From Bolinopsis microptera (taxonomy: Eukaryota > Ctenophora > Tentaculata > Lobata > Bolinopsidae): DNA of 64,000 nt. A program made the position numbers and the translations under genes. The notes under the pieces are model-generated. The model searched no databases. It was not told the origin of the DNA and was given only the letters and a program-made list of their open reading frames with translations. Shown here piece by piece: positions 8,811 through 64,000 of this stretch. The number at the start of each line of letters is the position of its first letter. Positions within the stretch are counted from its first letter, which is position 1. Where the stretch lies: positions 8,484,394 through 8,548,393 of the forward strand of contig NC_087084.1 in assembly GCF_026151205.1 (NCBI RefSeq), in the 5' to 3' direction.

Positions 8811-9283
8811 TATAATTATATAAAATGCCATTCTGCACAACACCTAGAAATATATGTAGTACCAGTAAGTGGCGGAGAAAATCTAGAGAAGGCGGCAAAT
8901 TCTGAACAAAGAAGAAGATGAACTTTGCTGCCTACTGGAATTTTGTCAACCATATTAACTTAGTAAGTCTTTACTAGCTACAATTTGTTACCGCGATCTT
9001 GCTCGAATTTATAGGATAATGGAAAATTTTCCACCGTTATAGTATTACGCTTCAACGTAAAACGTAAAACAATATAATAGAATTGCACAAACAACAAAGT
9101 CCTCTACCAATTTCATGAAAATGGTTAAAACTGCGCTGGCTCCCCGCTCCAGGCCTCCGAGATCCGAACTAATGCAGAGCTAAGACATAAGTTCTACTTC
9201 ATACTTAGTATTTAAAACATATGTGGATAATTCATCACATTGTACAGTGATTTCGTGGCAGACACTGTAAGTTCAGCGCTTAA
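8811..9283. other. flanking sequence shared with two other places
   Basis: The first part (8822-8925) matches 29132-29235 downstream of the second membrane-protein cluster. The part 9040-9230 matches 25575-25760, just after the GPCR tail repeat, including ACAACAAAGTCCTCTACCAA. No gene is seen. Confidence 0.7.
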
Positions 9284-9828
9284 ATGGTCGAAATTAACGG
9301 TAGTGAAACGGAAGTGTGCTCATGTGCCCACAGATACGGACATAGCTGCAGGATGAGGAGATGCAGTCACCCAAAAACGGGGGTACTCATGAAAACAGAA
9401 AGCAAAAAATCAGGAAGAAATGTGAAAAATGTGCAATATGATACTGGAGGAAGCATCAAAACTGATAACAAAGTTCAAGATTATATGCAAGATGTTATTG
9501 AACGAGGCAAAAACCCTAATAATCGAGATGAAGATGTGCAAGATGAAATTGAACAAGGCGAGAATACTGATATACAATTTCACGATGTTCAAGATGACAT
9601 CGAACAAGACGAGAAAACTGATACTCTGGTAAAATATGTTCAAGATGACATCGAACAAGACGAGAAAACTGATACTCTGGTAAAAGATGTTCAAGATGAC
9701 ATCGAAAAAGACGTGAAAACTGATACTCTGGTAAAAGATGTCTAAGATGACATCAAACAAAACGAGAGAACTGATAATCTGGTAAAAGATGTCCAAGACG
9801 TCCAAGATAATATCGAACAGGGAAACTG
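9284..9828 (+). pseudogene. broken relative of the GPCR cytoplasmic tail
   Basis: The open frame 9284-9745 codes for acidic repeats of the form VQDDIEQDEKTDTLVKD. It opens with a segment (SHPKTGVLMKTESKKS) that aligns with the start of the GPCR tail at 20890-20940 (GHPTTGIHVKTLTRKL). A TAA at 9743-9745 sits where the other repeat copies have CAA (Gln). After it the same frame continues with repeat units to a TGA at 9826-9828, so this is a nonsense mutation in a longer tail. No 7TM sequence lies upstream. It is probably a tail-only remnant of a duplicated receptor gene. Its repeats are more divergent than those of the intact tail. Confidence 0.65.
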
Positions 9829-11011: not shown

Positions 11012-14000
11012 ATGACTAAGATCATAATCCTTCTCATCGTCTCGGGAGTGGTGACAGTAGGCTCAGCTTCAGGCAAGCATATCGAGCAAGGTTAGGTTAT
11101 TGTATCCAATCCGACGGTCGATGGCTCTATGTTGTTGATTTACACGATACTATGTACGCACCATACTCCCCAATTCTACTTTCAACTGAACAGTTAAAGA
11201 TAATATGTTACAGGGGGCAAGGACTTTACATTTCATCTGGTGAACGGAAGTATAGACTTGTCTACTAGTGGCTTTGGAATTTTCTTTGCTCAAGATGGAA
11301 ATAAAAGGGTATGTCATTAAATTGCTATGTTAGGGCTATATTAGCCATCATATTGGATCAACAAAAAATGTTTGTGCTACTAATGAGTTTGTGTATATAA
11401 TATAGTTCAGTCATTATCAATAACAAATGTTTGTCCATATTTAGATTGTTTCGATTTATCATTTTATTTTATCTTAAAGTTAGTTTTCTTGAACAATTAG
11501 TTTTTCTTTGAAAATTTTTCAATTGGCTACTTTCTCAAGAATATTACTTGTTACTATCATGTGATATATAAAGATGCCGATATAGAGATGACGCTTCCGA
11601 ACTGTCTATTATCGACCTCCACGGAAAACTTTCCACACTGAAAATGGACTGAGTTCCCTATTATTTCTTTCGAACATAACATTTACTCAATACTCATTTT
11701 CAGATAATTCCTGTCGCAGATATCCAAGGATATTCCGAATGCTTTTTTGACCATATTTGCCAAAAAATGGGTTTTGAGGAAGGAATTAGTGGGTTCGTGG
11801 GGACAGTTAGGTTCGAGAAGAAGAACCCATACCGCAAAAGTGCCGTGTTAGATAACATAAAATGTGATTACAATTCAGACGGAACCGCTGAAGCTCACTA
11901 TAATTTTAGAATTTCAAAAAAGAATGGGAAGGCTCATCCAAGTTATTGGATTCTGTTGTGTGGACCGATGAAAGGTTTGATAGTGATTGTTTGGCAAATT
12001 ATAGCCATATAGGTTAAATGCCGACCGGCTATTACAGTGGGCCGTTACGGTAACAGCCCTCTCACAGCCCTATCAAAACACAAGTAAGCGTCTAATACTA
12101 ATAGTAGACGCTTACTTGTGTTTTGATATGGCGATTAACTGGCTGTTAGAGGGCTGTTACCGTAACAGCCGGCTATTCTAATAATATCACATATTTTCTT
12201 AAGAATATTCCACGCTATGGTTGAATTTTTATAATAACATTGGTTTAAGTTTAACCGTGGTTTTTCACGTAGGGCAACTGCATTTTCTATGCGCTGCTGA
12301 TAATAAGAGCAATACCGAAAGTGCATTTTGGTGCTGACAATTTTTAAGCCGCGCCACAACTTTTAATTCTCAGCTGAATGTTTGTTTCCAACAAACTTAG
12401 ACGCAAAAATTCAAGCCATTTGTAAGGTTGTAGTTAAAAATATACTAAAAATTCAAAATTTAAATACCCTTTTTAAGTTTGCGTTGCTTTCAGAGGACTG
12501 TGCGATAGTCAATAAAAACAACTACTTGAAGAAGCGTTGCATCGAGGACCTCGGTTACACAGTCCACCAGTGTCACAGCTCAAACAGTTACTTCGTGGTT
12601 AAAACGTGGGACATCCAAAGATTAAGTGTGTTTGACCGGATCTGTGAAGCAGATCCTTATTTTTATCAGACTTGTGGTGAAGGGATCCATAACCTAGCAT
12701 CAAACAATCTAACCCTGTGCGGGGACTACATGTGTAAGCAACCGCCACCGCCTAAAAATACCTTATCCAGCTACTCGATCCCCCCAGATATGGCCTGTCA
12801 GAGACAACCTTGCGATTCTCGGCCCTGTTGGATAACTGAGACTCCAGTCTGCACTAACTTGGATCTGACTGGTGCTGCCTGCATAGATTCACAGGGACCA
12901 GTAGAGACATCTGTACGACTGAGGTCAGGTTTGGTGGTGCCCCACTCCTCTCTGTGTAATGGTATATGTGACGTTCACTTCCGTTGTGAGGATGAGGCGG
13001 AATGTGGGGGCTATCTCTATGGGAGATTCTGTTATATAGAGGGGCAGCCGAAACCAATCTACGTTTATCCCTCTCTCTCTTTTTCTCACTTTTGTGAAAA
13101 TGGTGACGATGAATTCGAAAGTCCGAATTTAACTGATTTGCTTTGGACAGAGAAGTGCGAATCTTTTACGAGCAGTATGGTTAGTGAACTGCTGTTTCTA
13201 TACTATTGTCATTGAGAGTTTGGTTAGTGAACTGCTATTTCTATTGAGAGTTTGGTTTAAATAGAACTTTAATGATTGATGATATTTCAACACCATATAA
13301 TATGTATACACTATTATATTATATGTACATATATGTAGAAATGTAAAAGACGTCATAACACTCACTGCTGCAAACTTAGAGAAATATGTAGCAATATATA
13401 CCAAATTGAGGGCGGTTTTAAAGCTTATAAGACAGCTGCAGATATACCGAATCCAGACAGCAGGATCCTGGAATAATTTATCAGTATTATATGATAACAT
13501 AATATGAACACATTTCAATAAAGCAAAAGGAGTTATTCACATAAATTATGAAACCAAATTGAAATTCAGTTTGGCGAACAAAGAACACCAAACGGTAGAT
13601 ACTGCATTTAATCCACTTCTAACACCCTAACAACACCCTAACAACAACACCCTAACAACACCCTAACAACACCCTAGGTAAGAGCTATTGTTAACCGTAC
13701 AAGATGTGTAGCAGTCTGGAGAAAACTTACCAACATTCACAGAATTATACCTATGTGTAAAAACTTCTGGGACCAGACGAATTGCACTGATCCAAATAGG
13801 TTTATTAACCAAATAGGCTTTGAATTCAATTTTACTAACAACTGAATTACGGATATAATTCTATTTGAAAAATAAGATTGTTACTAATTGTAACCCCATA
13901 ACACCCACAACAGGGGTATATTGACTTGCAATATAGGAGGATACAGTTCAACTTTGTCAATATATTTGGTGTGTCATGAGTTGACGACAATTCCTCGAAT

Positions 14001-17000
14001 GTGCGACGATGGAGTAGGTCAGGTAAGAATCTTCAACTGTCTCTCTTAAATAAAATTTGACAATTTCTGCTAGCTTATGTTTACTGCAATAATTAAAATG
14101 CTTTTTATTGAACTGTGAACCTTAGCGCAATTAGTCCAAATAACTATATATATATTATTATATTATTATATTATTATATTATTATATTATTATATTATTA
14201 TATTATTATATTATTATATTATTATATTATTATATTATTATATTATTATATTATTATATTATTATATTATTATATTATTATATTATTATATTATTATATT
14301 ATTATATTATTATATTATTATATTATTATATTATTATATTATTATATTATTATATTATTATATTATTATATTATTATATTATTATATTATTATATTATTA
14401 TATTATTATATTATTATATTATTATATTATTATATTATTATATTATTATATTATTATATTATTATATTATTATATTATTATATTATTATATTATTATATT
14501 ATTATATTATTATATTATTATATTATTATATTATTATATTATTATATTATTATATTATTATATTATTATATTATTATATTATTATATTATTATATTATTA
14601 TATTATTATATTATTATATTATTATATTATTATATTATTATATTATTATATTATTATATTATTATATTATTATATTATTATATTATTATATTATTATATT
14701 ATTATATTATTATATTATTATATTATTATATTATTATATTATTATATTATTATATTATTATATTATTATATTATTATATTATTATATTATTATATTATTA
14801 TATTATTATATTATTATATTATTATATTATTATATTATTATATTATTATATTATTATATTATTATATTATTATATTATTATATTATTATATTATTATATT
14901 ATTATATTATTATATTATTATATTATTATATTATTATATTATTATATTATTATATTATTATATTATTATATTATTATATTATTATATTATTATATTATTA
15001 TATTATTATATTATTATATTATTATATTATTATATTATTATATTATTATATTATTATATTATTATATTATTATATTATTATATTATTATATTATTATATT
15101 ATTATATTATTATATTATTATATTATTATATTATTATATTATTATATTATTATATTATTATATTATTATATTATTATATTATTATATTATTATATTATTA
15201 TATTATTATATTATTATATTATTATATTATTATATTATTATATTATTATATTATTATATTATTATATTATTATATTATTATATTATTATATTATTATATT
15301 ATTATATTATTATATTATTATATTATTATATTATTATATTATTATATTATTATATTATTATATTATTATATTATTATATTATTATATTATTATATTATTA
15401 TATTATTATATTATTATATTATTATATTATTATATTATTATATTATTATATTATTATATTATTATATTATTATATTATTATATTATTATATTATTATATT
15501 ATTATATTATTATATTATTATATTATTATTATTATATTATTATATTATTATATTATTATATTATTATATTATTATATTATTATATTATTATATTATTATA
15601 TTATTATATTATTATATTATTATATTATTATATTATTATATTATTATATTATTATATTATTATATTATTATATTATTATATTATTATATTATTATATTAT
15701 TATATTATTATATTATTATATTATTATATTATTATATTATTATATTATTATATTATTATATTATTATATTATTATATTATTATATTATTATATTATTATA
15801 TTATTATATTATTATATTATTATATTATTATATTATTATATTATTATATTATTATATTATTATATTATTATATTATTATATTATTATATTATTATATTAT
15901 TATATTATTATATTATTATATTATTATATTATTATATTATTATATTATTATATTATTATATTATTATATTATTATATTATTATATTATTATATTATTATA
16001 TTATTATATTATTATATTATTATATTATTATATTATTATATTATTATATTATTATATTATTATATTATTATATTATTATATTATTATATCATTATATTAT
16101 TATATTATTATATTATTATATCATTATATCATTATATCATTATATTATTATATCATTATATCATTATATTATTATATTATTATATCATTATATTATTATA
16201 TCATTATATCATTATATCATTATATTATTATATTATTATATCATTATATCATTATATCATTATATCATTATATTATTATATTATTATATCATTATATCAT
16301 TATATTATTATATCATTATATCATTATATCATTATATTATTATATTATTATATCATTATATGATTATATCATTATATCATTATATTATTATATTATTATA
16401 TCATTATATTATTATATTATTATATCATTATATTATTATATTATTATATCATTATATTATTATATCATTATATCATTATATTATTATATTATTATATCAT
16501 TATATTATTATATCATTATATTATTATATTATTATATCATTATATCATTATATTATTATATTATTATATTATTATATTATTATATCATTATATCATTATA
16601 TTATTATATCATTATATTATTATATTATTATATCATTATATTATTATATTATTATATTATTATATTATTATATTATTATATCATTATATCATTATATTAT
16701 TATATCATTATATCATTATATTATTATATTATTATATCATTATATTATTATATTATTATATTATTATATTATTATATCATTATATTATTATATTATTATA
16801 TTATTATATTATTATATTATTATATCATTATATTATTATATTATTATATTATTATATTATTATATTATTATATCATTATATTATTATATTATTATATCAT
16901 TATATTATTATATTATTATATTATTATATTATTATATTATTATATCATTATATCATTATATTATTATATCATTATATCATTATATTATTATATTATTATA

Positions 17001-18550
17001 TTATTATATTATTATATTATTATATTATTATATTATTATATCATTATATTATTATATTATTATATTATTATATTATTATATCATTATATTATTATATTAT
17101 TATATCATTATATCATTATATCATTATATCATTATATTATTATATCATTATATCATTATATTATTATATTATTATATCATTATATCATTATATTATTATA
17201 TTATTATATCATTATATCATTATATTATTATATTATTATATTATTATATCATTATATCATTATATTATTATATTATTATATCATTATATCATTATATCAT
17301 TATATTATTATATTATTGTATCATTATATCATTATATCATTATATTATTATATTATTATATCATTATATCATTATATCATTATATTATTATATTATTATA
17401 TCATTATATTATTATATTATTATATCATTACATTATTATATTATTATATTATTATATCATTATATTATTATATTATTATATTATTATATCATTATATCAT
17501 TATATTATTATATTATTATATTATTATATCATTATATTATTATATTATTATATTATTATATTATTATATTATTATATTATTATATTATTATATTATTATA
17601 TCATTATATTATTATATCATTATATTATTATATTATTATATTATTATATTATTATATCATTATATTATTATATTATTATATCATTATATTATTATATTAT
17701 TATATTATTATATTATTATATCATTATATTATTATATTATTATATTATTATATTATTATATCATTATATTATTATATTATTATATTATTATATTATTATA
17801 TCATTATATTATTATATTATTATATTATTATATTATTATATTATTATATTATTATATCATTATATCATTATATTATTATATTATTATATTATTATATTAT
17901 TATATTATTATATTATTATATTATTATATCATTATATTATTATATTATTATATTATTATATTATTATATTATTATATTATTATATTATACTTCGGCCGGG
18001 GTTTCACTGCCGCAGTTAAAAAGGGTAGGATTAATTACCCGCTGAGTCAAAACCCGGATTATGCGAGAAATTCTATACGGAGTGCCCTCACGTATCCAAT
18101 AGTATCCTTAAAAAATAATATTAACAATAATCAATAGAAATTAACCCTTATTAACTCCGCACCACACCCGCATATTTGAAAACATGCATTACATTGTCGT
18201 ATGAAAGTATGAACTCTCTCTACAGTCCAAACAGACCGCTAAGAGCGATTCCTCCCCTAATAAGTTTAAAGTATAACACGACAGTGTAATATATACGCTA
18301 CATAATATACAGTAATGGGAGAGAGAGCGAGCCCCGTAACTCTTACCTTTTTCTTGATTAAGCTGCTCAAGCCATTTTATGTAACATTTGTGGTACAAAA
18401 CCATCAATTAAACCACTTACCACCGGCCGACTTACATAAAATTTGCTTATGGGCTTCGTCAGAGTTTTGTTGCAATGTTGGCACTATACCGAAAAAGAGT
18501 CCCGTAACTCTTACCTTTTTTTAATATAACCGACCGGAAATTACACACGC

Positions 18551-18592
<42 letters not shown>

Positions 18593-21500
18593 GATCAGAC
18601 ACACACACATTTGAGATTATTGTTTAAGATTATATGTATATTAATATCACTATAACTTTTTTAGATTCGTGTAAACAAAATTTCTATAATTGAAATAAAA
18701 CACACAATAATCTTGTTTCGTATAATGTGATCTCTCAGGTATGTGAATCAGTTTCACCGACGTGTTTTATTCACAAACACAGGCTCTGTGACGGCATAAA
18801 AGATTGCCTGAATAATGAAGATGAGGATCTAAAATCTTGCAACTCCCTCACGCAGCGAACGTGTCATAGAGCTTACAGACATGAACAACCTCTCAGAATT
18901 CCTCTGGCATGGCTTCAAGATGGCGTGAAAGATTGCATAAATGGTATTGATGAGGATGATAGCTGGCCAGTTTGCGGCTTTGGGTCAACAAAACGATTCA
19001 TTACCAAAACAAATCCTGCTTGCGATGAGGTTTTCCTGTGCGAACTGGGACAAGAAAATAGATATGTTGAGTTTCAGAACCTTTGTGATGGCAAAGATGC
19101 TTGTGGTCGAGAGAAAAGAGCTTGTCAAAAATCTCATGAGATGACTCTTACCTTTGACAAAGTTTTAACCACAGTCAAGTTTGGGAAAAGTGAAAAGCGC
19201 CTCATGTACTGCTTGCAAGGACTCACAGAAATACAGAAAATTTCCGAAAAGTGTGTGAGGAAGGAGGTGAATTTAACAAAACAGGAGGTTTTTGGAGTAA
19301 ATTCAGATATCACAGTCGTTTATCCTAATAAAACGTTTAACTGTGACTACACATTTGGTGAACTCTATTTAATTTTGAGCTGTTCAGGCCGTTGTGAAAA
19401 TTCTACTTGTCCATTAAAGGATACCTATCGATCCGACGCTTGCCCTCAGCAATACCCAAACCGGGTCTACACAGTGGCACAAAACTCCTTTCTCACATTT
19501 GTCACGAAAACAAGACACGGTTACACCAACGATCTCTTTGTATGTCGCAACAGCCTTTGTATAACCCAAAACAAAGTTTGCAACGTTGTGGACGACTGTG
19601 GAGATGGTTCTGACGAAGAGACCTGTACCAATGTGTTTCGCTGTCACTCAAAAGAGCGGTTCATTCCAGTAACTGAGAAATGTGATGGAACAGTGGACTG
19701 CCTGGACTTCTCGGATGAATGTAACTCGGACTGCGGTAAAAATATCGTTCAACAAACCTTCCTCAAGTTGATGTGCTGGTTGTTGGGGATTTTAGCGGTC
19801 CTTTTCAATCTAGTGACCATTTGTCGAACTTGGTTTGCCGCCGAAGACAAGAACACTACGGTTATGAAGAACAGGCTCTTGGTGTTTCTGATATCCGTTG
19901 GAGACTTCCTCATGGGAGTACATTTGCTGTGGTTGGCTGTCAACGAAACGATTGTGTACGGGGCAAATTACTGCTCCAACCAGCTCGTTTGGCTGTCAAG
20001 CTTTGGTTGCTCAGTTATTGGCGTTATCAGCACGGTTGGAAGCCAGATGTCATTACTTTCCATGACTTTTCTCAGTACAGTACGAGTAGCCGGGGTCAAC
20101 AAGAAAAACACGTCGAGGAGGAAAGTTAAAAATATAGCAATTCTACAGATAGTTTCGGTGATGGCAGCGATTTTATTGATATCAGTGACCGTAGCAGTGG
20201 TCCCTTTGGTCCATTATTTTGAGGATTTCTTTGTGAATGGTATGACGTATAAACCTTCAGTAAGATTGTTTATAGGAGCACCAGGCAAAGAGGCTCATCT
20301 TGGTATATTACAAGAATACTACGGGAAAATAAAATCTGGGACTCTCAGCTGGAGAATTATAAACGATCTCATTGATGGAATGTTTTCCAATGATTATGGA
20401 GGTGACGTTCTCGGCCGAAAGAAACTCGAGTTTTATGGAAATGATGGTGTTTGCCTCTTCAAATTTTTTGTTAAACCTAATGACCCACAAAGATTTTATA
20501 CTTGGACAATCCTGGCGATGAACATGCTCTGTTTTATTATCATCTCAATATCTTACATATACATCAACATTACAGCTAATGCAGCCAGCCAGAAAATCGG
20601 AAACAAGAACAGAAAACTACAACAAAAAATATCACTGATCATTGCGACAGATTTCTTCTGTTGGTTACCTATTGTCATCGCATGCTGCCTTCATTCCAGT
20701 GAAGTTATCGACGCAACACCCTGGTACCCAATCATTTCAATAATATTTCTACCAATAAACTCGGTTATCAACCCTTTACTGTACAACGATTTTGTTGCGA
20801 ATTCTGCAAGTTCACTGTTTAAGTGGTTGGAAACAACTCTGAAACCAAAGTGTGCTCAAGAAGTGCCTGCTGATCCGGGTGATGGTATTGGTCACCCTAC
20901 CACAGGGATACACGTAAAAACACTCACCAGGAAATTGGAAAACAATGTGCAGAATGTGGTAAATAACGTTGGTAAGAAAACTGATAACCCAGTTCAAAAT
21001 GACATCGAACAAGACCCAGTTCAAAATATGCGAGATAACGTTGAACAAGGCAAGAAAACCGATAGCCCATATCAAAATGACATTGAACAAGGTAGAAAAA
21101 CTGATAAACCAGTTCAAAATGTGCAAATTCACATTGAACGAGGCCAGAAAACTGATAACCCAGATCAAGATGTGCAAGATGACATTGGACAAGGCAAGAA
21201 AACAGGTAACCCAGATCAAGATGACATTGGACAAGGCAAGAAAACAGGTAACCCAGATCAAGAGGACATTGGACAAGGCAAGAAAACAGAAAACCCAGAT
21301 CAAGAGGACATTGGACAAGGCAAGAGAACAGATAACCCAGGTCAAGATGACATTGGACAAGGCAAGAAAACAGGTAACCCAGATCAAGATGACATTGGAC
21401 AAGGCAAGAAAACAGGTAACCCAGATCAAGATGACATTGAGCAAAGCAAGAGAACAGATAACTCAGATCAAGATGATATTGGACAAGGCAAGAAAACAGA

Positions 21501-24500
21501 AAACCCAGATCAAGAGGACATTGGACAAGGCAAGAGAACAGATAACCCAGGTCAAGATGACATTGGACAAGGCAAGAAAACAGATAACCCAGGTCAAGAT
21601 GACATTGGACAAGGCAAGAAAACAGATAACCCAGATCAAGATGACATTGGACAAGGCAAGAAAACAGGTAACCCAGATCAAGATGACATTGGACAAGGCA
21701 AGAAAACAGATAACCCAGATCAAGCTGTGCAAGATGATATTGGACACGGCAAGAAAACAGGTAACCCAGGTCAAGATGACATTGGACAAGGCAAGAAAAC
21801 AGGTAACCCAGATCAAGATGACATTGGACAAGGCAAGAAAACAGGTAACCCAGATCAAGATGACATTGGACAAGGCAAGAAAACAGGTAACCCAGATCAA
21901 GATGACATTGGACAAGGCAAGAAAACAGGTAACCCAGATCAAGATGACATTGGACAAGGCAAGAAAACAGGTAACTCAGATCAAGCTGTGCAAGATGATA
22001 TTGGACACGGCAAGAAAACAGGTAACTCAGATCAAGCTGTGCAAGATGATATTGGGCACGGCAAGAAAACAGGTAACCCAGATCAAGATGATATTGGACA
22101 AGGCAAGAAAACAGATAACCCAGATCAAGATGACATTGGACAAGGCAAGAAAACAGATAACCCAGGTCAAGATGACATTGGACAAGGCAAGAAAACAGAT
22201 AACCCAGATCAAGATGACATTGGACAAGGCAAGAAAACAGGTAACCCAGATCAAGATGACATTGGACAAGGCAAGAAAACAGATAACCCAGATCAAGCTG
22301 TGCAAGATGATATTGGACACGGCAAGAAAACAGGTAACCCAGGTCAAGATGACATTGGACAAGGCAAGAAAACAGGTAACCCAGATCAAGATGACATTGG
22401 ACAAGGCAAGAAAACAGGTAACCCAGATCAAGATGACATTGGACAAGGCAAGAAAACAGGTAACCCAGATCAAGATGACATTGGACAAGGCAAGAAAACA
22501 GGTAACCCAGATCAAGATGACATTGGACAAGGCAAGAAAACAGGTAACTCAGATCAAGCTGTGCAAGATGATATTGGACACGGCAAGAAAACAGGTAACT
22601 CAGATCAAGCTGTGCAAGATGATATTGGGCACGGCAAGAAAACAGGTAACCCAGATCAAGATGATATTGGACAAGGCAAGAAAACAGGTAACCCAGATCA
22701 AGATGACATTGGACAAGGCAAGAAAACAGATAACCCAGATCAAGATGACATTGGACAAGGCAAGAAAACAGGTAACCCAGATCAAGATGACATTGGACAA
22801 GGCAAGAAAACAGATAACCCAGATCAAGCTGTGCAAGATGATATTGGACACGGCAAGAAAACAGGTAACCCAGGTCAAGATGACATTGGACAAGGCAAGA
22901 AAACAGGTAACCCAGATCAAGATGACATTGGACAAGGCAAGAAAACAGGTAACCCAGATCAAGATGACATTGGACAAGGCAAGAAAACAGGTAACCCAGA
23001 TCAAGATGACATTGGACAAGGCAAGAAAACAGGTAACCCAGATCAAGATGACATTGGACAAGGCAAGAAAACAGGTAACCCAGATCAAGATGACATTGGA
23101 CAAGGCAAGAAAACAGATAACCCAGATCAAGATGACATTGGACAAGGCAAGAAAACAGATAACCCAGATCAAGATGACATTGGACACGGCAAGAAAACAG
23201 GTAACCCAGATCAAGATGACATTGGACAAGACAAGAAAACAGATAACCCAGATCAAGATGACATTGGACAAGGCAAGAAAACAGATAACCCAGATCAAGC
23301 TGTGCAAGATGATATTGGACACGGCAAGAAAACAGGTAACCCAGATCAAGATGACATTGGACAAGGCAAGAAAACAGGTAACCCAGATCAAGATGACATT
23401 GGACAAGGCAAGAAAACAGGTAACCCAGATCAAGATGACATTGGACAAGACAAGAAAACAGATAACCCAGATCAAGATGACATTGGACAAGGCAAGAAAA
23501 CAGATAACCCAGATCAAGATGACATTGGACAAGGCAAGAAAACAGATAACCCAGATCAAGATGACATTGGACAAGGCAAGAAAACAGATAACCCAGATCA
23601 AGATGACATTGGACACGGCAAGAAAACAGGTAACCCAGATCAAGATGACATTGGACAAGACAAGAAAACAGATAACCCAGATCAAGATGACATTGGACAA
23701 GGCAAGAAAACAGATAACCCAGATCAAGATGACATTGGACAAGGCAAGAAAACAGATAACCCAGATCAAGATGACATTGGACAAGGCAAGAAAACAGATA
23801 ACCCAGATCAAGATGACATTGGACAAGGCAAGAAAACAAATAACCCAGATCAAGATGACATTGGACAAGGCAAGAAAACAGGTAACCCAGATCAAGATGA
23901 CATTGGACAAGGCAAGAAAACAGATAACCCAGATCAAGCTGTGCAAGATGATATTGGACACGGCAAGAAAACAGGTAACCCAGGTCAAGATGACATTGGA
24001 CAAGGCAAGAAAACAGGTAACCCAGATCAAGATGACATTGGACAAGGCAAGAAAACAGGTAACCCAGATCAAGATGATATTGGGCACGGCAAGAAAACAG
24101 GTAACCCAGATCAAGATGACATTGGACAAGACAAGAAAACAGATAACCCAGATCAAGATGACATTGGACAAGGCAAGAAAACAGATAACCCAGATCAAGA
24201 TGACATTGGACAAGGCAAGAAAACAGGTAACCCAGATCAAGATGACATTGGACAAGGCAAGAAAACAGATAACCCAGATCAAGCTGTGCAAGATGATATT
24301 GGACACGGCAAGAAAACAGGTAACCCAGGTCAAGATGACATTGGACAAGGCAAGAAAACAGGTAACCCAGATCAAGATGACATTGGACAAGGCAAGAAAA
24401 CAGGTAACCCAGATCAAGATGACATTGGACAAGGCAAGAAAACAGGTAACCCAGATCAAGATGACATTGGACAAGGCAAGAAAACAGGTAACCCAGATCA

Positions 24501-25641
24501 AGATGACATTGGACAAGGCAAGAAAACAGGTAACTCAGATCAAGCTGTGCAAGATGATATTGGACACGGCAAGAAAACAGGTAACTCAGATCAAGCTGTG
24601 CAAGATGATATTGGGCACGGCAAGAAAACAGGTAACCCAGATCAAGATGATATTGGACAAGGCAAGAAAACAGGTAACCCAGATCAAGATGACATTGGAC
24701 AAGGCAAGAGAACAGGTAACCCAGATCAAGATGACATTGGACAAGGCAAGAGAAAAGATAACCCAGATCAAGATGACATTGGACAAGGCAAGAAAACAGG
24801 TAACCCAGATAAAGATGACATTGGACAAGGCAAGAAAACAGATAACCCAGATCAAGATGACATTGGACAAGGCAAGAAAACAGATAACCCAGATCAAGAT
24901 GACATTGGACAAGGCAAGAAAACAGGTAACCCAGATAAAGATGACATTGGACAAGGCAAGAAAACAGATAACCCAGATCAAGATGACATTGGACAAGGCA
25001 AGAAAACAGATAACCCAGGTCAAGATGACATTGGACAAGGCAAGAAAACAGATAACCCAGATCAAGATGACATTGGGCAAGGCAAGAAAACAGATAACTC
25101 AGATCAAGATGACATTGGACAAGGCAAGAAAACAGATAACCCAGATCAAGAGGACATTGGACAAGGCAAGAAAACAGATAACCCAGATCAAGATGACATT
25201 GGACAAGGCAAGAAAACAGATAACCCAGATCAAGAGGACATTGGACAAGGCAAGAGAACAGATAACCCAGATCAAGATGACATTGGACAAGGCAAGAGAA
25301 CAGATAACTCAGATCAAGAGGACATTGGACAAGGCAAGAAAACAGGTAACCCAGATCAAGATGACATTGGACACGGCAAGAGAACAGATAACTCAGATCA
25401 CGAGGACATTGGACAAGGCAAGAAAACAGATAACCCAGATGAAGATGACATTGGACAAGGCAAGAAAACAGATAACCCAGATCAAGATGACATTGGACAA
25501 GGCAAGAAAAAGGTAACCCAGATCAAGATGATATTGGACAAGGCAAGAAAACAGGTAACCCGTTATATGTACTTATGTATTACGCTTCCACGTAAAACAA
25601 TAGAATTGAACAAACAACAAAGTCCTCTACCAATTTCATGA
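11012..25641 (+). CDS. LDLa/SRCR-like GPCR of the LGR type with a giant repeat tail
   Basis: Five exons: 11012-11090, 11214-11308, 11704-11974, 12494-13179 and 18739-25641, all GT-AG with phases 1, 0, 1, 0. About 2,677 residues. Residues 1-22 are a signal peptide. An SRCR-like domain follows (CQKMGF ... AVLDNIKC), then Cys-rich sequence. The first LDLa module is completed only by joining exons 4 and 5 (its six Cys run across the junction), which proves the 5.6 kb intron 4. Two more LDLa modules lie near residues 646-706 (CGDGSDEETC, CDGTVDCLDFSDEC). The 7TM spans about 720-1062 and has LGR hallmarks (SVGDFLMGVHLL, TDFFCWLP, NSVINPLLY), a long second extracellular loop and no DRY box. It resembles relaxin-receptor/GRL101 types without leucine-rich repeats. 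The tail is about 100 copies of DDIGQGKKTGNPDQ. A one-base loss near 25510 changes the last 44 residues; without it the frame would stop at 25593-25595. Ligand unknown. Confidence 0.85.
12039..12172. repeat. nested palindromic fold-back element in GPCR intron 3
   Basis: The inner arms 12071-12094 and 12105-12128 are perfect 24-base reverse complements around a 10-base loop. The outer arms (12039-12069 and 12141-12172) are near-perfect complements of about 30 bases. Each outer arm also contains a self-palindrome of the form GGCTGTTAC-GTAACAGCC. A fold-back MITE is the likely explanation. No coding capacity. Confidence 0.85.
13180..14145. other. start of GPCR intron 4, no gene
   Basis: The donor GTTAGT is followed by a short local duplication (GTTAGTGAACTGCT appears twice, at 13180 and near 13221). 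An 11-bp tandem repeat (CAACACCCTAA) lies near 13619-13677. Otherwise the sequence is AT-rich and without exons that fit the flanking phases. Confidence 0.6.
14146..17989. repeat. 3.8 kb array of the 8-bp repeat TTATTATA
   Basis: About 480 head-to-tail copies of TTATTATA fill most of GPCR intron 4. From 14150 to about 16085 the units are essentially identical, apart from one register slip near 15527. From 16085 to the end, units with TCATTATA are mixed in irregularly. With no stop codon in the unit, the array reads as long spurious open frames. It is not coding: the flanking receptor exons splice over it in phase. Confidence 0.97.
18333..18520. repeat. 20-bp direct repeat in GPCR intron 4
   Basis: CCCGTAACTCTTACCTTTTT occurs at 18333-18352 and again at 18501-18520, about 170 bp apart, between the large array and exon 5. 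Significance unknown. Confidence 0.7.
18551..18592. repeat. (ACAG)n microsatellite
   Basis: A run of about ten ACAG/CAGA tetranucleotides lies about 150 bases before exon 5 of the GPCR gene. Confidence 0.95.
21160..25560 (+). repeat. 42-bp coding minisatellite of the GPCR tail, with higher-order structure
   Basis: About 100 copies of a 42-bp unit (14 codons) occur, with a 51-bp variant that adds three codons (AVQ before DDIGHGKKT). The variants recur in the same order: the block with AVQ units starting near 21.71 kb repeats near 22.28 kb, about 570 bp later, and again near 22.81, 23.93 and 24.27 kb. Larger segments were therefore duplicated after the basic unit. Neither strand has stops in several frames of the unit, so other frames look open too. 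The receptor frame is the one continuous with the 7TM. The repeat is highly charged and hydrophilic. Confidence 0.95.
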
Positions 25642-25843
25642 AAATGGTTAATGGTTAAAACTGGCTCCCCGCTCCAGCTAAGCATCCAGGCCTCCGAGAT
25701 CCGAACTGCAAAGCTATTGCTAAGTCATAAAGTCATAACAGATAAGTTCTACTTGGTATTTAAAACATTTTTTGGGGCTTTGTAATACTATGACGGCATT
25801 GCTTTGAATTTGAATTTCTGATGATATTGATTTTCACTTTCAG
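25642..25843. other. 3' flank of the GPCR gene
   Basis: The first part matches 9090-9235. No gene. A poly(A) signal is not obvious; AATAGAATTG near 25600 is the nearest AT-rich candidate. Confidence 0.5.
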
Positions 25844-28086: not shown

Positions 28087-28230
28087 GTAAGTTTACATAA
28101 TATTCTTTAAGTGTATACCTGAAATTTGGCTTGCATTTTTTATCACTATAGATGGAGAAAAAATGGAGAAAAAAATTGATTTTAACCCTTAACGTTTCCC
28201 CCAGGCAAAAAAGACCCTCGATACCTCCGG
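28087..28230. other. 3' flank of the intact membrane-protein gene
   Basis: Short AT-rich sequence before the minisatellite. No feature recognised. Confidence 0.4.
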
Positions 28231-28487
28231 TTGAAGCCTAGCTCCCGGACCATTTCCGCAGTTAACTTGTCCTGCGATGCCTTTCACAACATCGATTGAT
28301 GACGGTTGAAGCCTAGCTCCCGGACTACTTCCGCAGTTAACTTGTCCTGCGATGCCTTTCACAACATCGATTGATGACGGTTGAAGCCTAGCTCCCGGAC
28401 CATTTCCGCAGTTAACTTGTCCTGCGATGCCTTTCACAACATCGATTGATGACGGTTGAAGCCTAGCTCCCGGACTACTTCCGCAGA
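28231..28487. repeat. 75-bp minisatellite, three full units and a partial one
   Basis: Units start at 28231, 28306, 28381 and 28456. They differ at a few bases (CCATTT against CTACTT). The period is divisible by three, which explains a spurious open frame on the minus strand. The same unit is found once at 4886-4990. Confidence 0.95.
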
Positions 28488-29235: not shown

Positions 29236-30128
29236 CGAGAAAGGAAATTACCTGCCAAATCAATAAGAATTACATTTTTTTCCCTAACTTCTTAGGCAAA
29301 AAATAAGACATTACATTCAGGAAAACTAAAAAGCATTCTTCGATCGTTTCTCTCTATTGCTTGAATCGAAAATCTTGAGGTCGGATTATAAAAAACTTTT
29401 AAGTCATAATAATCATAAGAAAAAGATGTAAACCGTCAATACACAAAATTAATGATGTATTTATTCTTTTTTCAGCGTCCATAATTTGTATAAAAAGAAG
29501 AAGTTGATCCGTGTTAAATGAGACGCATATCTTAAAATGTAAGAAGTTTCTTCATTCTTGAACTGGTGGATTTAGAAATTCTAAATATGTACATATATTA
29601 TGCATGATAAAAGAAGATTGAAGATAATGCTGTTGATATGATGAATAGTGTAACTGTAAGACGCCAAACCAATCGAACAAAAATTAAACACTTCAACAAT
29701 TTAACGTCAAATTATGGCATGGCAAAAAATTATGACACATCTTTACATCAAAGTAGTAATATACATCTCATAATAATAATGTATAAATCTTATTATATCT
29801 ATAACATTTTAAATGCATCTAATTTGAGCGAAAAATTATTAACTTCAGCTGTTTTTATATCATTTTTACAGCCTAAAAACTTGGTTTAAATTGGTAAATG
29901 AAAAAGCAATATTAAAACCTAAATCTAGCGTTTAAATTTGGAAAGAGCGCGCGAGGAATGTTTAAAAAGATCAAAAGAAGCACTGGATTTGAAATATACC
30001 TACCAACAAGGCTATACTTTCACCTCGAAATTCGCAAATGTATCAAAAAAAGGGGCGGTTAACACAAATCAACGTAATCGTAAAACCACAAGTCCATCCA
30101 AGAGTTTCAATCGCCGTGCAATAAAACG
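29236..30128. other. 3' flank of the PAK gene
   Basis: AT-rich, with short open frames of no coding character. Part of it (from about 29400) is present twice more as error-rich copies near 52.9-53.5 and 53.5-54.1 kb. Confidence 0.5.
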
Positions 30129-30190
30129 TGACGTCACGGCTTGTAGCGTGACGTCATACCATTGTGCGTGACCATGTGATGGGTCACGTG
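30129..30190. promoter_or_regulatory. two CRE palindromes and an E-box beyond the PAK stop codon
   Basis: TGACGTCA occurs perfectly at 30129-30136 and 30149-30156, with starts 20 bp apart. CACGTG follows at 30185-30190, about ten bases past the PAK stop codon. TGACGTCA is the known CREB/ATF site. Function here is inferred from the motifs only. Confidence 0.45.
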
Positions 30191-30200
30191 AGCAGTGTTT

Positions 30201-39407
<9,207 letters not shown>

Positions 39408-39686: not shown

Positions 39687-42600
39687 TTACTCCAGTAGCA
39701 GGGAATAGTTGAGTGTGCACTTCGATGTACACGATTTCTGACAACACAGGGTTGTTTGTTAGATCATTCTTAACCAAAATCGTTTAGGTACGCAATTTGT
39801 GTCGCTAGACATAACCCTACAGGGCAAATTTTCTAAATTACCCTCAGTCGCATATACGGGATTTTTGTATTTCAGCTCCTAAAGGTCATAGAGACTTGAA
39901 TTTTAGCTTAAAATTACCGCAATGGCTACATTTATATACAAGTTATGAAGCAACATAAGGTCTCCAGTGCTTCATTTTATAGATATTGACAAAAAACTGG
40001 TTTTTTTTTCTCAGCGAACCAAAAATGGCACTGAATTTTGATAACTTGAACTAGGAAAGTCGTAGAGACTTGAATTTTAGCTTAAAATGACCGCAAACAT
40101 CATATTTATATACAACTTATAAAGCAATATAAGCCCTTTAATGCTTATTTGTTGAGATATTGACAAAAATCAGTCATTTTGGCTACAAGTGTGAGGAAAA
40201 ATACCAAATTGGGCAACTACTTTGGTATTTTGACACACCCCACAACACTTACCATCATCCTTGATTACACATCTTGATTCCACTGGCATCCTCATTCCTC
40301 CCACAGGACTGCCATACCCCAGAGGTAGGCAAAGCATTCTTATGCTATCCTCTCGTGGGCCAACCAGGCCCAGCCTCTCTAAAAAATAAATAAATTTTTT
40401 TTAAAAAAACTTCTTTGGTCTTTTTTTGACAATTTTTGTGCTCAAGTTATTAAAATGTGCTTTGCAGTTGTAGATCGGATGTTTTCTTCCAATATGGGTT
40501 TCGGTATAAATCCGGAAGCACCCGGTTCATGGGTGATAGGGGTTAAAAATCCTGAAATGTCAGGCGATGGGCGAGACAATTGTCTGAATTTGGTTATAAA
40601 ATCACTCTTTGCTAGGGTTTGCTTTTTTCCGCTACATCGATCCGCTTTCTAACTACTGATCATCCCCCTCTACATCATTGATCATTCTCTTTTAGATACA
40701 TGATTTCTATAAGTTCTTGAAGGTACATCCGGCATGATGTAAAGTTTATATCAAAGCATTTTAATGTGGTCTTAACAAGTTGCAAGATATTCAAGTTCAT
40801 TAATAAAACAGAGATTGTAGGATATCCTTCTTTTACATATTGAGTAATTGTGGGATTTTTGAGGGGGAGGCTATAAAATGGCCAAATATAATTTAAACGT
40901 AAACGACCCAATAATAATATTAAAAGTAGAATGAAACTACTTAAAACTTATACAGATTTAAACTTATACAGATTTATGGTATCCTGTTTCAAGACGCTTG
41001 CTCCTGATTTTTAGCAACAATATCGACTGACCCCACAACGTTGTAATATAATTGTGGGTAGGCAATCACTTGATCTATAAGTTTTGAACGGTAGTTTGTA
41101 AAAATAATTATTTCCAAGGTAATACTAACTTTCAAAGGTACATCTTAAGTTATCATCAAATTATTCGGGTTGACAGTATTAAACATTTTGAATCGGGAAA
41201 TCAAAGCGTAACTTTTTGATTACAGATAAACGATGTGGATGCGGATGTTGTACAATGTACATTAACGTCATCTTAAATCTATTTTGAATGGAGTATTATA
41301 CAGTAGTTCAACTATATAATTGCATATCCAGTATTCACCTACAAGCATTTAACTGCTTGGCGTGATAAGGTACATCTTTGAATGGTAGTAGGGTCTTTCA
41401 GCGACACAGCAATATCACTTCCATGGTAGTCCCCGGCTTATGACAGGTTCATAGCGGTATCAAACATGTTTTATGGGCCTAACTCCCAATCATCTGTCCA
41501 AATAATGGTGTTTCTGGACAGATAGATGGTGTATGGTGCCTTCATGCTAATTTCAGCGATCTTCATGCAGGCCTTATTCTCTTTAGTGTTTACGTTCAGG
41601 TGGTTCATAAAGGTTTGGAGGCTGCAGTTGTAAATGACTCGAACTCCAAATTCTACTGTCTGGAACTTGCAAGCCCATCCGTTGGCTTCTATCTCTTCTG
41701 TCAGCTGCTGATATCTCCTTATCTTATTTTCTCTTGATCAGCAAAGTTCTCCTCATTCAGATGCACCTTCTTCGCTTTATCTAAATAGATCACTACATCT
41801 GGTCTCAATAGTATTATCCTAATGTAATGTCTAACAATAACGTTTATAAGCGCTACAATTTCGAACTAGCGGACCATATTCGGAAGAGAAATTTGGGACA
41901 GTATTTTGCTTGGAAATACTGATTTAATCGAATTGTAACCACAAAAATGACTCCCAATAATAGTCTTATGGAAAGTGTGAATAAATATTAAAGATTAAAA
42001 ATAATACAGGTTTGACTATGAAGTTTCGTCAATAATCACGTAAAGAATAATAGATAACCTACAATCTTTGTTTGGTAAACCAATTTGGTATATTTCCTCA
42101 CATGTGTAGCCAAAATTACTCAATATGTAAAAGAAGGATATCCTACAATCTTTTTTTTATTAGTGAACTTAAATATCTTGCAACTTGTTAAGACCACATT
42201 AAAATGCTTTGATATAGACTTTACTTCATGCCGGATATACCTTCAAGAACTTATAGAAATCATATATCTAAAAGAGAATGATCAATGATGTAGAGGGGGA
42301 TGATCAGTAGTTAGAAAGCGGATCGATGTAGCGGAAAAAAGCAAACCCTAGCAAAGAGTGATTTTATAACCAAATTCAGACAATTGTCTCGCCCATCGCC
42401 TGACATTTCAGGGTTTTTAACCCCTATCACCCATGAACCGGGTGCTTCCGGATTTATACCGAAACCCATATTGGAAGAAAACATCCGATCTACAACTGCA
42501 AAGCACATTTTAATAACTTGAGCACAAAACTTGTCAAAAAAAAGACCGAAGTAGTTGCCCAATTTGGTATTTTTCCTCACACGTGTAGCCAAAATGACTG

Positions 42601-43081
42601 ATTTTTGTCAATATCTCAACAAATAAGCATTAAAGGGCTTATATTGCTTTATAAGTTGTATATAAATATGATGTTTGCGGTCATTTTAAGCTAAAATTCA
42701 AGTCTCTACGACCTTCCTAGTTCAAGTTATCAAAATTCAGTGCCATTTTTGGTTCGCTGAGATAAAAAACAGTTTTTTGTCAATATCTATAAAACGAAGC
42801 ACCGGAGACCTTATGTTGCTTCATAACTTGTATATAAATGTAGCCATTGCGGTAATTTTAAGCTAAAATTCAAGTCTCTATGACCTTTAGGAGCTGAAAT
42901 ACAAAAATCCCGTATATGCGACTGAGGGTAATTTAGAAAATTTGCCCTGTAGGGTTATGTCTAGCGACACAAATTGCGTACCTAAACGATTTTGGTTAAG
43001 AATGATCTAACAAACAACCCTGTGTTGTCAGAAATCGTGTACATCGAAGTGCACACTCAACTATTCCCTGCTACTAGAGTA
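39687..43081. mobile_element. 3.4 kb element with about 1 kb inverted arms, allelic empty site present
   Basis: The left end TTACTCCAGTAGCAGGGAAT and the complement of the right end (TACTCTAGTAGCAGGGAAT) begin inverted arms. They run to about 40911 on the left and from about 42085 on the right, with only scattered differences. The second copy of this locus runs straight through at 63772-63774 with a single TAG. The element here is flanked by TAG on both sides (39684-39686 and 43082-43084), so the borders and a probable 3-bp target duplication are clear. The spacer holds a retroelement endonuclease remnant. No transposase is seen. It is a fold-back type element, probably mobilised in trans. 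Confidence 0.9.
41471..41805 (-). pseudogene. retroelement endonuclease-domain remnant in the spacer
   Basis: The minus strand reads RPDVVIYLDKAKKVHLNE. After one frame change near 41715 it goes on with RYQQLTEEIEANGWACKF, then VEFGVRVIYNC and a tail to a stop at 41471. The RPD start followed by YQxLxxExxxxGW resembles the C-terminal endonuclease-like region of restriction-like-endonuclease LINEs, as I remember that family. It is short, frameshifted and inactive. Confidence 0.55.
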
Positions 43082-44520: not shown

Positions 44521-47500
44521 TTTGTGTGAGTAAACGATTAGGTAATTAATCACTAATCGCGTGTAATTACACTGTGAATTTCAGCTTCTGTTGGATGTGT
44601 AAACTTTGTGAATGAACGAACAGCCACATTCGTGGAGTCCAGCCACCTACAAAATACATGGCAACATGATCACGGGTAAATATACACATACACAAGTCCT
44701 ATCTGTTTTACTGCATATTTACAAGTCAACCACTGGTGATCTTTGAAAAGCCCCCCCTCCCCCCCCCCCCGCCTCATCATCTGACATCCCTTGATCATGT
44801 TTCGGAATGATCAGTACCCTATAATTAAAGAAATAATTAAACGCATAACCTAAGCCAATACTTATCTGCTTCAATTATACAAAAGGAACACGTAACAAAA
44901 AATCAGGAATGAAAAGAAGCAATTAGCATTTCTGAAACTATAACCGAAATTAAATGCTGTCTGGCCTTAAAATTTAAATAAGTTTGTATTTTTGTAAATA
45001 ATAGTATTAAAAAAATACTGCATATTTGATATTGGATATCATAGCAAATCAAATACAAAAATATATGCACAATTCCAAAGCGTACCACCCCACCCCTAGC
45101 GTGGGATTCAACTGATATCGCGTTCCGTTCGGACATCCGATAAAATTGCCTTTCGTAGCATAGCATAAAGATTTTACCTCATGGTAGACAAAGCCTTCCT
45201 TTTTTCCAAGATAAAAAGACCACGTGATATTTCTCTATAGCCAAATTGGAATGTCTGGAATGCGGGCCAATTATAGCGACGACCAAAAGCACCTCGGATT
45301 CTCCTCTATCAAGAATTGAAGAATATACCAGACCAGAATCCTGTCAGAATCTCTGTCCATTAAAGATGATGCTCCTTTCTTTGGTCACAAATCCTGAATT
45401 GTTTTCCCTAACCTTCCTTAGTTTCTTCCCAAAATCGTTTTCTCTTTGTCATGCTTAGTATCCGTTATTCCTGGTATCTTTCCGCAGAATTTAGATTTAG
45501 AGTTGCTTTATTTTGTTGAAAGTTTAGTATTTTGTTTGTTAATTTTAGACAATTTAACTGATGTTGGGTTGTTTGGAAGGATATTGATGCCAACTCCTTT
45601 CGAATGTTACTTGACAGTTTAGGAGATCTCTTACTATTGGACTAAATGGATTCCCGATCTGCTAGTCCGAGTCAGTGAGTCTCAATCCCCTCAAATCAAA
45701 CTATTGATTTTCTCCATACTTTCAACCGTGTTAGGTTCTTGGCCTTGATATTAAGATTTTTAGAGAACACTAGAAGATTCAAAATATTTATCTACTAGTA
45801 TTCCCAATTTGAAAGGGCGAGACGGGCTTATCTATAAAATACATGGTTCCACTTTAAAAAAAAGTTTGAACTTCAAATTCCTTAGATTTTTTCAATATTT
45901 CAGACGACGAGGAAGAAATAATATGAGAGTTCCTCGTCCCAAACACTGCTCCTGCTCCACCACCAAGACCACTACACCACAACCGCTAGTATCGATTAAG
46001 TCCACATTTATAGAAAAAGATTATGTTGTCAATAGACATAATTCTTGTTATTATACACCCCCTGTTGCATTTTACATATTCTCACAACCCAAACCTTGTT
46101 CTAGTTTGCATTTACAGTATATCTGTACTTTTAGATCCGTCAACTTTGTCCACGAATGTCTTGTGCTGTCCTAAATAAGCCAATTTGTTATACTGAAATT
46201 CTTCCACGGCCGAACGAATGGCGGTGCTATCGCTTCCTTATCTAATTTATTATTCTAAATTATTTAGCTTGGCCTGTAATTTAAATAGCCGAGTGTGCCT
46301 ACTAATATCGGCAATACATGATGAGCTAAAAAAGGAGATATAACCTACTTACTGAATCATTTGGACCTAAACAGGTGTTAAGAATTAGTTTAGGCAGAAA
46401 CTCTTGTTTTAAAGGCAGAGGCGATTAGCAGACAAATTGTCCCCGCGCTACGTAGCGCGGCGGTTTTTGCTGTTTTTTCACAAGTCCAAATTACCAAGGC
46501 CATTTCTTTTTCGCGCCATCACGTACGGTTTTCCGTGCTTTTTGGAAGAATAACTATTGTTTACGGTATTATGACTGGGTGCATTATGTACAAACATTTT
46601 GTATTTACGGCATTGCAAACAGAACATCACCAATAAATAACGCCCCTCTTAATATGAACTGTTCTTGAATTTGACTACTATTGCTCTATTCATTATTTTA
46701 CAAGCATGTTTAAATAAAACCAATGCTACAATACCCCTGGCTGAAAAATATTGTTCTTGACTGTTAGCATGAACCTCTGAGAACACGTCTATCGCACCAT
46801 TAGAACGTATATGATAATCTTGTTGATTTGTGTGTTATCCACCAACATTATACAACGCGCATCATCGCATTAACTCTTATCCTGGAGGCTGTACTAGATG
46901 CGTTTTAAAGCTAATAGCTTGCGCGATGGGCCTTTGTTCGTATGGCAAAGTTTAGCAGTACTAGGACCGCCCGGCAAAACTCCCTTTTCCATCCCGATTT
47001 TCAAATAACATCACCATCCCATCATCGTGATAATATCAAAGTTTTTTCGCTAAACGGTGCATCTATAAACTTATACTCCCAGAACGTAACTAGTCAGACC
47101 ACTGTGAATCAATTCCGACACACTGGTTACGTTGTTGGTTCGGTAAGGTCTTCCTCCTGCAGTCCAGCTTTGCGTCATTCAACAAGTCTATTCTATTGTG
47201 TGTTGGTAGCCTGTACCGATTCCTCTGCATCCTTCAGAACGAAATGTACGTTGCAACGGAACTTTCTCCGTATCGGTCTCCTGTACCTGCAGCTTTTTCT
47301 ATGTTTGTTATTTTTACCCCCAGGATATTATACGCATCCTCAACATTCCCAAGCATTCCATTTTTTGTTGTGCTGTCGCTGTGAAAACGGAATGAGGAAT
47401 CCGTATCATGAATTCCCCAGTCAATCAGCTACTTTCATTCAAAATGGATTCTGTTTTTTCATTTTCGAATTTTAATTCCCCCCCCGGGATAACTTCTCTT

Positions 47501-62357: not shown

Positions 62358-64000
62358 ACCTAATCGTTTCTCACACCCAAACAAGGGTAGATATTCATTT
62401 AACAGTGACCCAACCCGAGAATGTGGCGGAAAACATGACGGTGACGGTGTAACGGGCGAGATGTAAAGAATTTACAGGAAAATGAACGATGGAATGATCT
62501 CATTCTTCATTACGTCATGAAGTCGTCATTTCTGTGGAACACTCCAGATTTTCACTAACCTCGGGATTTTTCTTGGTTTCTTCTTTACTGATGGCAGATG
62601 TACTGAGAAGAACTTCCCATTCTTTTGGTAAATTCTGGAAAAGTAAATAGTGAATCTCAGATATTTAAAATTCAAATAATCCTATGAACGGATGGCGAAT
62701 AACAAGGTTGAAGTCGGGTAAAAATACTAACCGCTGTAAGGTAACACCTCAAATAAATCAGAGTTTAAAGATTGAAACTTTCAGCACATTTATTGTATTC
62801 ATGACAATGGAAAAAATTCCAAGATGGCAATGTTATTCAAATGGGATTGATATAAATCATCATACTTAATTAACAATAAAAAGGCGTAACTAAATTCTTA
62901 GAATATTCTAGTTTCAGACAAAAAGATAATTTATTATACCAAATTTTTAAAATTTTGGTAGAAGAAAGGATGAGACATAAACTTACAACAAATTCTCCAG
63001 ATTCTTGGTCAAATCCTACGTGCATTTGATGTGAAAAGTCTTGTGGGCTGGAAATCTCTATCTTATTACGACCTGTGGAGAAAACAAGTTATTTACGTAA
63101 ATATACGTAATTATATACATATACGTTTAAATTATATACATATAATTACGTATATTTACGTAAACTCTGTGTTCAATTTTCATTTCACTTTGTTTTTTAT
63201 TTGACCGGGGACAAATACAGTTTATAAGTTTTGACCTAACCTTTGACTACATTAATTAATTAAATTGAGGAGATCGTAAGGATTATGATTATAGTTTAAA
63301 AAGCATAATTCCCTCACCAGGTTTCTTGAGGAAGTATGTGAAAAACTTGCTCTTCTCCTTGTTATGACCAGGAGGCATGGGAGGAAGGGGCTTATCAGGG
63401 GGTTGGGGGGAGACGTCCATCAGGGACACAGTACGGGGAGGGGGTGCACTCGGCTGGTTCTCATTGTAATCAACCTGGTTGTGGTTATAGGACATCCCTA
63501 CCACCTATAAGTGGGAGAGTGGTTAGTTGGGCTAATTGGATGATTAGTTTCTGTACTCAATTAGTCATTTTTCGTGACATGTAATGCCAGTTATGATAAT
63601 TTTGAACCTGTGAAGTGTGAGTGGAGATTTGCTGAAAATGTTTGCTAAAATAACAAGTTTGCTAGAATAACAAGTGAAGTAGATACGATTGATTCCAGAA
63701 TCACGCGTTATAGAAATGACGCGGTGCTATCGCGGAGATATCAAATCGTGTTGCCGAATATATCGAGAGAATAGTAAATTGATCGCTTTTTTAAGTTGTA
63801 TAACCACATTAACTAAGTGTAAAACATAAATAACTTGTTGTCTGATTTGGAACGTAACCAAAAAATAATAAGCTTAGTATATATTATACTTTTTTTCGCT
63901 ATAACCTTTTAAATAAATATTTTAGACACATAGTTGATCAATAAGATGAATATAAACATTCACATTTTGCATCTTTTAAGCTATTATTCGATTGTCTAGG
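62358..64000 (-). repeat. clean second copy of the PAK 5' region (38.27-39.69 and 43.08-43.3 kb)
   Basis: The offset is 24085, then 24088 after a three-base insertion near 63127. Only a few single-base differences are seen over about 1.4 kb (for example a G/A difference near 62402, and T/C differences near 62749 and 63275). The 3.4 kb element is absent. This level of difference fits two alleles better than old paralogues. Confidence 0.9.
62560..63495 (-). CDS. PAK1: PAK exons 1-3, second copy, partial
   Basis: Exons 63495-63318, 63072-62987 and 62634-62560 are intact, with the same splice sites and reading phase as 39407-38475. They code for the Pro-rich N-terminus, the CRIB motif and the start of the autoinhibitory region. 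The next exon (AVLDVLNF) should follow but the sequence joins the LINE region at 62357 instead. It is either an allele broken by misassembly or, less likely, a truncated duplicate. Confidence 0.85.

Follow-up and report, generated by a model that had tools for sequence, protein, structure and literature searches.

A predicted class A receptor in the ctenophore Bolinopsis microptera whose long acidic tail may stem from the expansion of a coding minisatellite

Results

Gene structure and receptor class

The window, i.e. the whole stretch of 64,000 nucleotides of contig NC_087084.1 of B. microptera that was analysed (G+C 36%), holds one open frame of 2,315 codons (18694-25641, +), which runs without interruption over a long tandem array. 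The exon that carries it most likely starts at 18739, directly after a ctctcag acceptor. Together with putative exons further upstream, placed by their AG/GT edges and by frame joins, it gives the following gene:

11012..14022, +, putative upstream exons of the same gene, comprising the six listed next
11012-11090, +, putative exon with an ATG at its start
11214-11308, +, putative exon
11704-11974, +, putative exon
12374 to about 13174, +, putative exon, 3' edge uncertain
13743-13799, +, putative exon
13914-14022, +, putative exon 6
14151..17988, no strand, 3.8-kb TATATTAT satellite, about 480 copies (TRF)
18739..25641, +, single last exon with LDLa modules, 7TM, tail head, array and out-of-register end (acceptor ctctcag/GTATGT)
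19534..19722, +, LDLa modules adjoining TM1 (Pfam PF00057, E 3.9e-12)
19768..20784, +, seven transmembrane segments (PF00001, E 7.5e-9; hydropathy)
20941..21213, +, diverged tail head of mixed 17- and 14-aa units, about NVQNDIEQGKKTDNPVQ (frame parsing)
21214..25479, +, regular array of 99 units (TRF and frame parsing)
25480..25641, +, final unit lacking one base near 25510, followed by 43 out-of-register residues up to the TGA at 25639-25641

The gene model consists of two in-frame exon groups, of which one is formed by the first four exons and the other by 13743-13799, 13914-14022 and the sequence from 18739 onward; the joins within the groups are putative, and the two groups, separated by the 13174-13743 junction, would belong to a single gene. 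By eye only, the start of the 11012-11090 product resembles a signal peptide. Cys-rich or LDLa-like sequence is found in the last three upstream exons. While no Pfam family matches the first 415 aa at E<=10, LDLa is the sole family matched in the following 394 aa. An SRCR domain, suspected by eye in the N-terminal exons, was dropped since Pfam gave no match at E<=10; SRCR repeats are mentioned for sponge adhesion GPCRs (PMC4302439). The TATATTAT satellite lies inside the intron 14023-18738, as predicted from its splice sites, directly before the last exon.

PF00057 matches two stretches of the product of the open frame (P0001; the best at aa 281-311, the end of the second module being set by eye) and four stretches of the joined gene model at a permissive E<=10, so that the ectodomain holds several LDLa modules. 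The 7tm_1 family (PF00001) scores 35.9 bits against a cut-off of 30.5, and the hydropathy profile contains eight rows above 1.5, two of which overlap, leaving seven segments. Within this region we find CWLP and NPLLY, which we take to be motifs of 7TM receptors. Most class A receptors carry E/DRY at the end of TM3; here this position (20074-20088, aligned by eye) reads STVRV, with the Arg kept and the acidic residue not. A PDB sequence search with the receptor returned 58 distinct sequences at E<=0.01. Its top matches are to LRP2, via the LDLa modules, and the best 7TM relatives are the lutropin, thyrotropin and follitropin receptors (LHCGR, TSHR, FSHR), below which follow relaxin receptor 1 (RXFP1) and LGR4, and then more distant class A receptors. 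Judged by these matches, the product is a class A (rhodopsin-type) GPCR with LDLa modules, nearest to the glycoprotein-hormone and relaxin receptors. An AlphaFold model from the single sequence, made with no alignment, reached a mean pLDDT of 44.5 and was set aside as too poor.

About 1,520 hydrophilic residues follow TM7, in agreement with the initial annotation, which gave the 7TM receptor some 1,500 tail residues, and their hydropathy does not rise above -0.96. Acidic residues make up a fraction of 0.235 and basic residues 0.141 of the 1,522 residues of the tail, among which there is one aromatic; the pI is 4.34 and the GRAVY -1.98. We thus expect the tail to be disordered and net acidic, and to form a bristle on the cytoplasmic face of the membrane. 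Two other notions were considered for this tail. A coiled coil, suggested by 14 being two heptads, was rejected by eye, the regular unit having one isoleucine plus Pro and Gly, and phase separation via aromatic stickers is not favoured with a single aromatic residue.

The repeat array

TRF reports a period of 42 with 104.9 copies (21033-25561, score 6769), and 99 regular units could be parsed, in line with the roughly 100 copies first proposed. The unit size of 14 residues holds for 87 of these units, mostly DQDDIGQGKKT[DG]NP, while the remaining 12 have 17 aa owing to an extra AVQ (DQAVQDDIGHGKKTGN[PS]). Repeats are present in the tail from 20941 onward, some 220 bp ahead of the start at 21160 assigned to it initially. 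An example of the tail peptide is TDNPDQDDIGQGK. Residues D4, I5, K9 and N13 are invariant across the 99 units, and codon 12 encodes Gly in 53, Asp in 43, Glu in 2 and Asn in 1.

All 99 units are in frame with the open frame that holds LDLa and 7tm_1, which bears out the earlier statement that the unit keeps the reading frame; the last unit, one base short, does not, and this deficit may be either real or a sequencing error. As an argument for coding, however, the open frame counts for little. With a period divisible by three, the array (21214-25479) is also free of stops in a second sense frame and in one of the antisense frames, while the remaining three contain 10, 96 and 193. A better argument is that the array continues the 7TM exon without a stop, so that translation of an unspliced message has to pass through it, and we expect the tail to be translated in full length.

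The units are homogeneous, with 28 distinct DNA versions among the 99, and their order contains long block copies. A string of 11 units recurs at a distance of 573 bp, which confirms the nested duplications of about 570 bp that had been noticed before; the corresponding distances are 1,986 bp for another string of 11 units and 2,559 bp for one of 10. If the count is restricted to strings of at least four unit types, the longest repeated string has 11 units, whereas none longer than 6 arose when the order of the units was shuffled 300 times. Such block copies, the longest of 11 units, suggest unequal exchange or slippage and, with the homogeneity of the units, agree with the recent expansion already suspected. 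Leaving Asp/Gly at codon 12 uncounted, the 30 edge units carry 1.17 changes per unit relative to the consensus and the other 69 units 0.77 (permutation p 0.053).

Variation between units

A comparison of synonymous with nonsynonymous changes between units had been proposed as a check, and we have carried it out. There are 17 types of variant relative to the consensus, 14 nonsynonymous and 3 synonymous, distributed 5/6/6 over the codon positions; at kappa 2, neutrality predicts fractions of about 0.73 nonsynonymous, 0.23 synonymous and 0.04 stop. Over all pairs of array units pN/pS is 0.98. Stops have arisen in none of the 99 units, where only about 0.7 would be expected for 17 variant types. 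By the variant counts and pN/pS, variation within the array fits the neutral expectation.

Some constraint on the units is nevertheless possible. The array value drops to 0.66 without codon 12, with its common Asp/Gly alternation. Among comparisons of older units, those with a neighbouring paralogue, described below, give 0.52 for the array and 0.59 for the head; the array against the head yields 0.77, and values within the head and within the paralogue are 0.97 and 0.69. A control over all six frames used a gap-free subset of units, four against four; owing to gaps it excluded a head unit and the 14-aa consensus, and a paralogue unit was dropped for being a near copy. Here the sense frame gives 0.65, the other sense frames 0.93 and 0.69, and the antisense frames 0.90, 0.87 and 0.81. 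Values of 0.65 or lower arise in 608 out of 2,000 permutations of the columns, so that the sense-frame value is not significant; with another sense frame at 0.69, past constraint is not demonstrated.

A broken paralogue next door

Upstream of the gene lie two stretches related to the receptor exon and its surroundings:

9037..9220, +, 73% copy of 25573-25768, the stretch that directly follows the array (blastn 2e-28)
9240..9826, +, broken paralogue with the end of TM7, the proximal tail and five clear 17-aa units of the DVQDDIEQDEKTDTLVK type (tblastn 8.3e-11)

The tblastn match falls into two pieces, in frames 3 and 2: a frame change separates the TM7 part from the tail part, and the fifth unit contains a stop. 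Its proximal tail is similar to that of the receptor. Read in this way, the paralogue is a shorter form of the receptor tail standing beside the array gene. This copy, the terminal frame change, the near-neutral variation and the weakness of the frame argument are points that the initial annotation did not contain.

Other sequences in the window

A 9-kb segment occurs twice in inverted orientation with 88% identity (29369-38291 and 44524-53488), and five open reading frames from the two copies have no Pfam match at E<=1. An element of 3.4 kb at 39688-43081 has long inverted arms (97-98%) and interrupts a sequence of which an intact copy is present at 62358-64000, matched by the left flank of the element at 99.6%; the element looks like a foldback transposon. 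At 58014-61538 (-), a 1,174-aa reading frame encodes domains of an endonuclease and a reverse transcriptase and is, by these, a non-LTR-type retrotransposon. At 28228-28486 there are 3.5 copies of a 75-bp tandem repeat, of a family that is also found at 4.5-5.7 kb. Rfam and tRNA scans of the window gave no matches. Outside it, no relatives were found with a 28-base pattern among viral contigs or with a 25-base pattern among prokaryote genome contigs, and of the viral contig stretches that matched a pattern of the receptor protein (10), none was confirmed. A PDB search with the tail head gave no match at E<=10.

Discussion

The explanation that we consider reasonably probable is that a coding minisatellite has lengthened an already disordered acidic GPCR tail, which would serve as a bulk spacer at most. 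The variant counts, 14 nonsynonymous to 3 synonymous, and a pN/pS near the neutral expectation are among the reasons for this reading, and of the options initially offered for the tail neutral expansion fits them best; the multivalent scaffold has found no positive support. We also count in favour of a minisatellite expansion the stop-free exon that connects TM7 with the array, the repeated 11-unit string, the 17-aa form in the paralogue and the composition of the tail, and further that the locus is prone to repeats, as the satellite of 480 copies in the same putative gene illustrates. With coding minisatellites the array shares its block copies and its homogeneous units, which stand head to tail in frame, the last being off by one base.

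That the tail is instead a selected scaffold, in which every unit binds the same partner (a G protein regulator, an arrestin or the cytoskeleton) and copy number sets the valency, seems unlikely to us. The four invariant residues, the presence of the repeat in both the receptor and the paralogue, and the values of 0.52-0.59 obtained for array or head units against the paralogue would all suit such a role, yet some invariant codons are expected anyway with 17 variants on 42 sites, variation between units is near neutral, and constraint specific to the reading frame is not significant. Moreover, the tail has no Pfam match at E<=10, which includes GoLoco, and 0 matches to a GoLoco-like core pattern; NPxY, NPF and dileucine patterns are absent from it, and an arrestin-code pattern occurs 5 times in 1,522 residues. 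None of the short motif patterns tried exceeds 5 occurrences.

We regard it as quite unlikely that the array goes un- or partly translated in most mRNAs, the repeats acting as splice donors to an acceptor past the array (e.g. 25844) and most messages thus encoding a short tail. Because codon 12 is Gly in many units, the sequence ACAG/GTAAC is created, and it occurs 55 times on the + strand in and beside the array (21001-25600), each a potential CAG/GTAAC donor; elsewhere in the window CAGGTAA is found on the same strand just 4 times, one of these being the putative exon-6 donor of the receptor gene itself. Just past the array there are four acceptor-like sites with 11 of 15 pyrimidines, 25844 among them, compared with at most 6 of 15 for those within it. 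With 55 donor-like sites and better acceptors downstream, shorter isoforms are therefore a live question, even though the donors fit only part of the usual consensus and the acceptor at 25844 would open into a long T run and so make an odd exon. Still less of a case can be made for the array length being an artefact of assembly, collapsed or expanded, which we hold to be most improbable: exact block copies of 11 units and a last unit lacking one base could come from misassembly, but 28 distinct versions in irregular order and an upstream flank in frame argue for a genuine array.

Under the minisatellite expansion that we prefer, the tail of the ancestral receptor would already have held a short repeat, acidic and about 17 aa long. 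By unequal exchange or slippage, including copies of multi-unit blocks, this repeat may then have multiplied until there were about 100 copies, most of them of a unit shortened to 14 aa, the change having presumably run from 17 to 14 aa. A tail that is hydrophilic and probably disordered could tolerate many lengths. Any effect would be one of bulk, the tail acting beneath the membrane as a long bristle or spacer with negative charge, rather than of signalling motif by motif. The bulk negative charge of the melanopsin C-terminus has been linked to deactivation (PMC7112210), a parallel that gives no more than a lead here.

Mucins and other coding minisatellite (VNTR) proteins share with this array the in-frame period, the homogeneous units and the block copies; whereas those are secreted or surface proteins, the product here would be the C-terminal tail of a receptor. 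Very long, repeat-bearing intracellular tails with dispersed short motifs are known from GPR179 and GPR158, which are class C receptors. The likeness lies in the 7TM domain followed by a very long tail of repeated motifs, but the units described here are near-identical and stand head to tail. Tandem pentapeptides form the tail of cephalopod rhodopsins, which is much shorter than the present one. These rhodopsins resemble our receptor as class A GPCRs with an extended low-complexity C-terminus, and their longer C-termini are described as proline-rich (PMC9740569), in contrast to the acidic tail of about 100 units found here. No title among the literature matches listed points to a tandem-repeat GPCR tail of this kind.

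For the extracellular part, LGRs with multiple LDLa modules (GRL101) are described from cnidarians and bilaterians (PMC4079206), a GRL101-like receptor with six LDLa modules is described from a starfish (PMC6267866), and rhodopsin-type receptors with LDLa are also listed for choanoflagellates (PMC12716839). LDLa modules and a class A 7TM domain are common to the type C or GRL101-like LGRs and the receptor reported here. Unlike the LGR/GRL101 group (type C2), the latter lacks leucine-rich repeats in the parts examined, passes from LDLa straight into TM1 and continues in a tail of about 1,520 residues. With Pfam, no LRR family is listed at E<=10 for either piece of the ectodomain (HMMER filters drop most weak matches), and LDLa ends directly before TM1. 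In view of the missing leucine-rich repeats, we have not filed the receptor as an LGR.

A bolder possibility, distinctly improbable in our view, is that a hypervariable in-frame minisatellite sets tail length, with individuals or paralogues ranging from few to about 100 units, and that length tunes signalling, diffusion or membrane crowding, perhaps together with splicing at the donor-like sites.

In summary, the locus apparently presents a coding minisatellite in mid-expansion, with the shorter 17-aa form alongside. If translated, the tail may rank with the longest that consist of tandem repeats on any class A receptor. It would then offer a natural experiment on the amount of disordered bulk that a GPCR tolerates, and on whether tail length alone changes coupling, arrestin binding or mobility.
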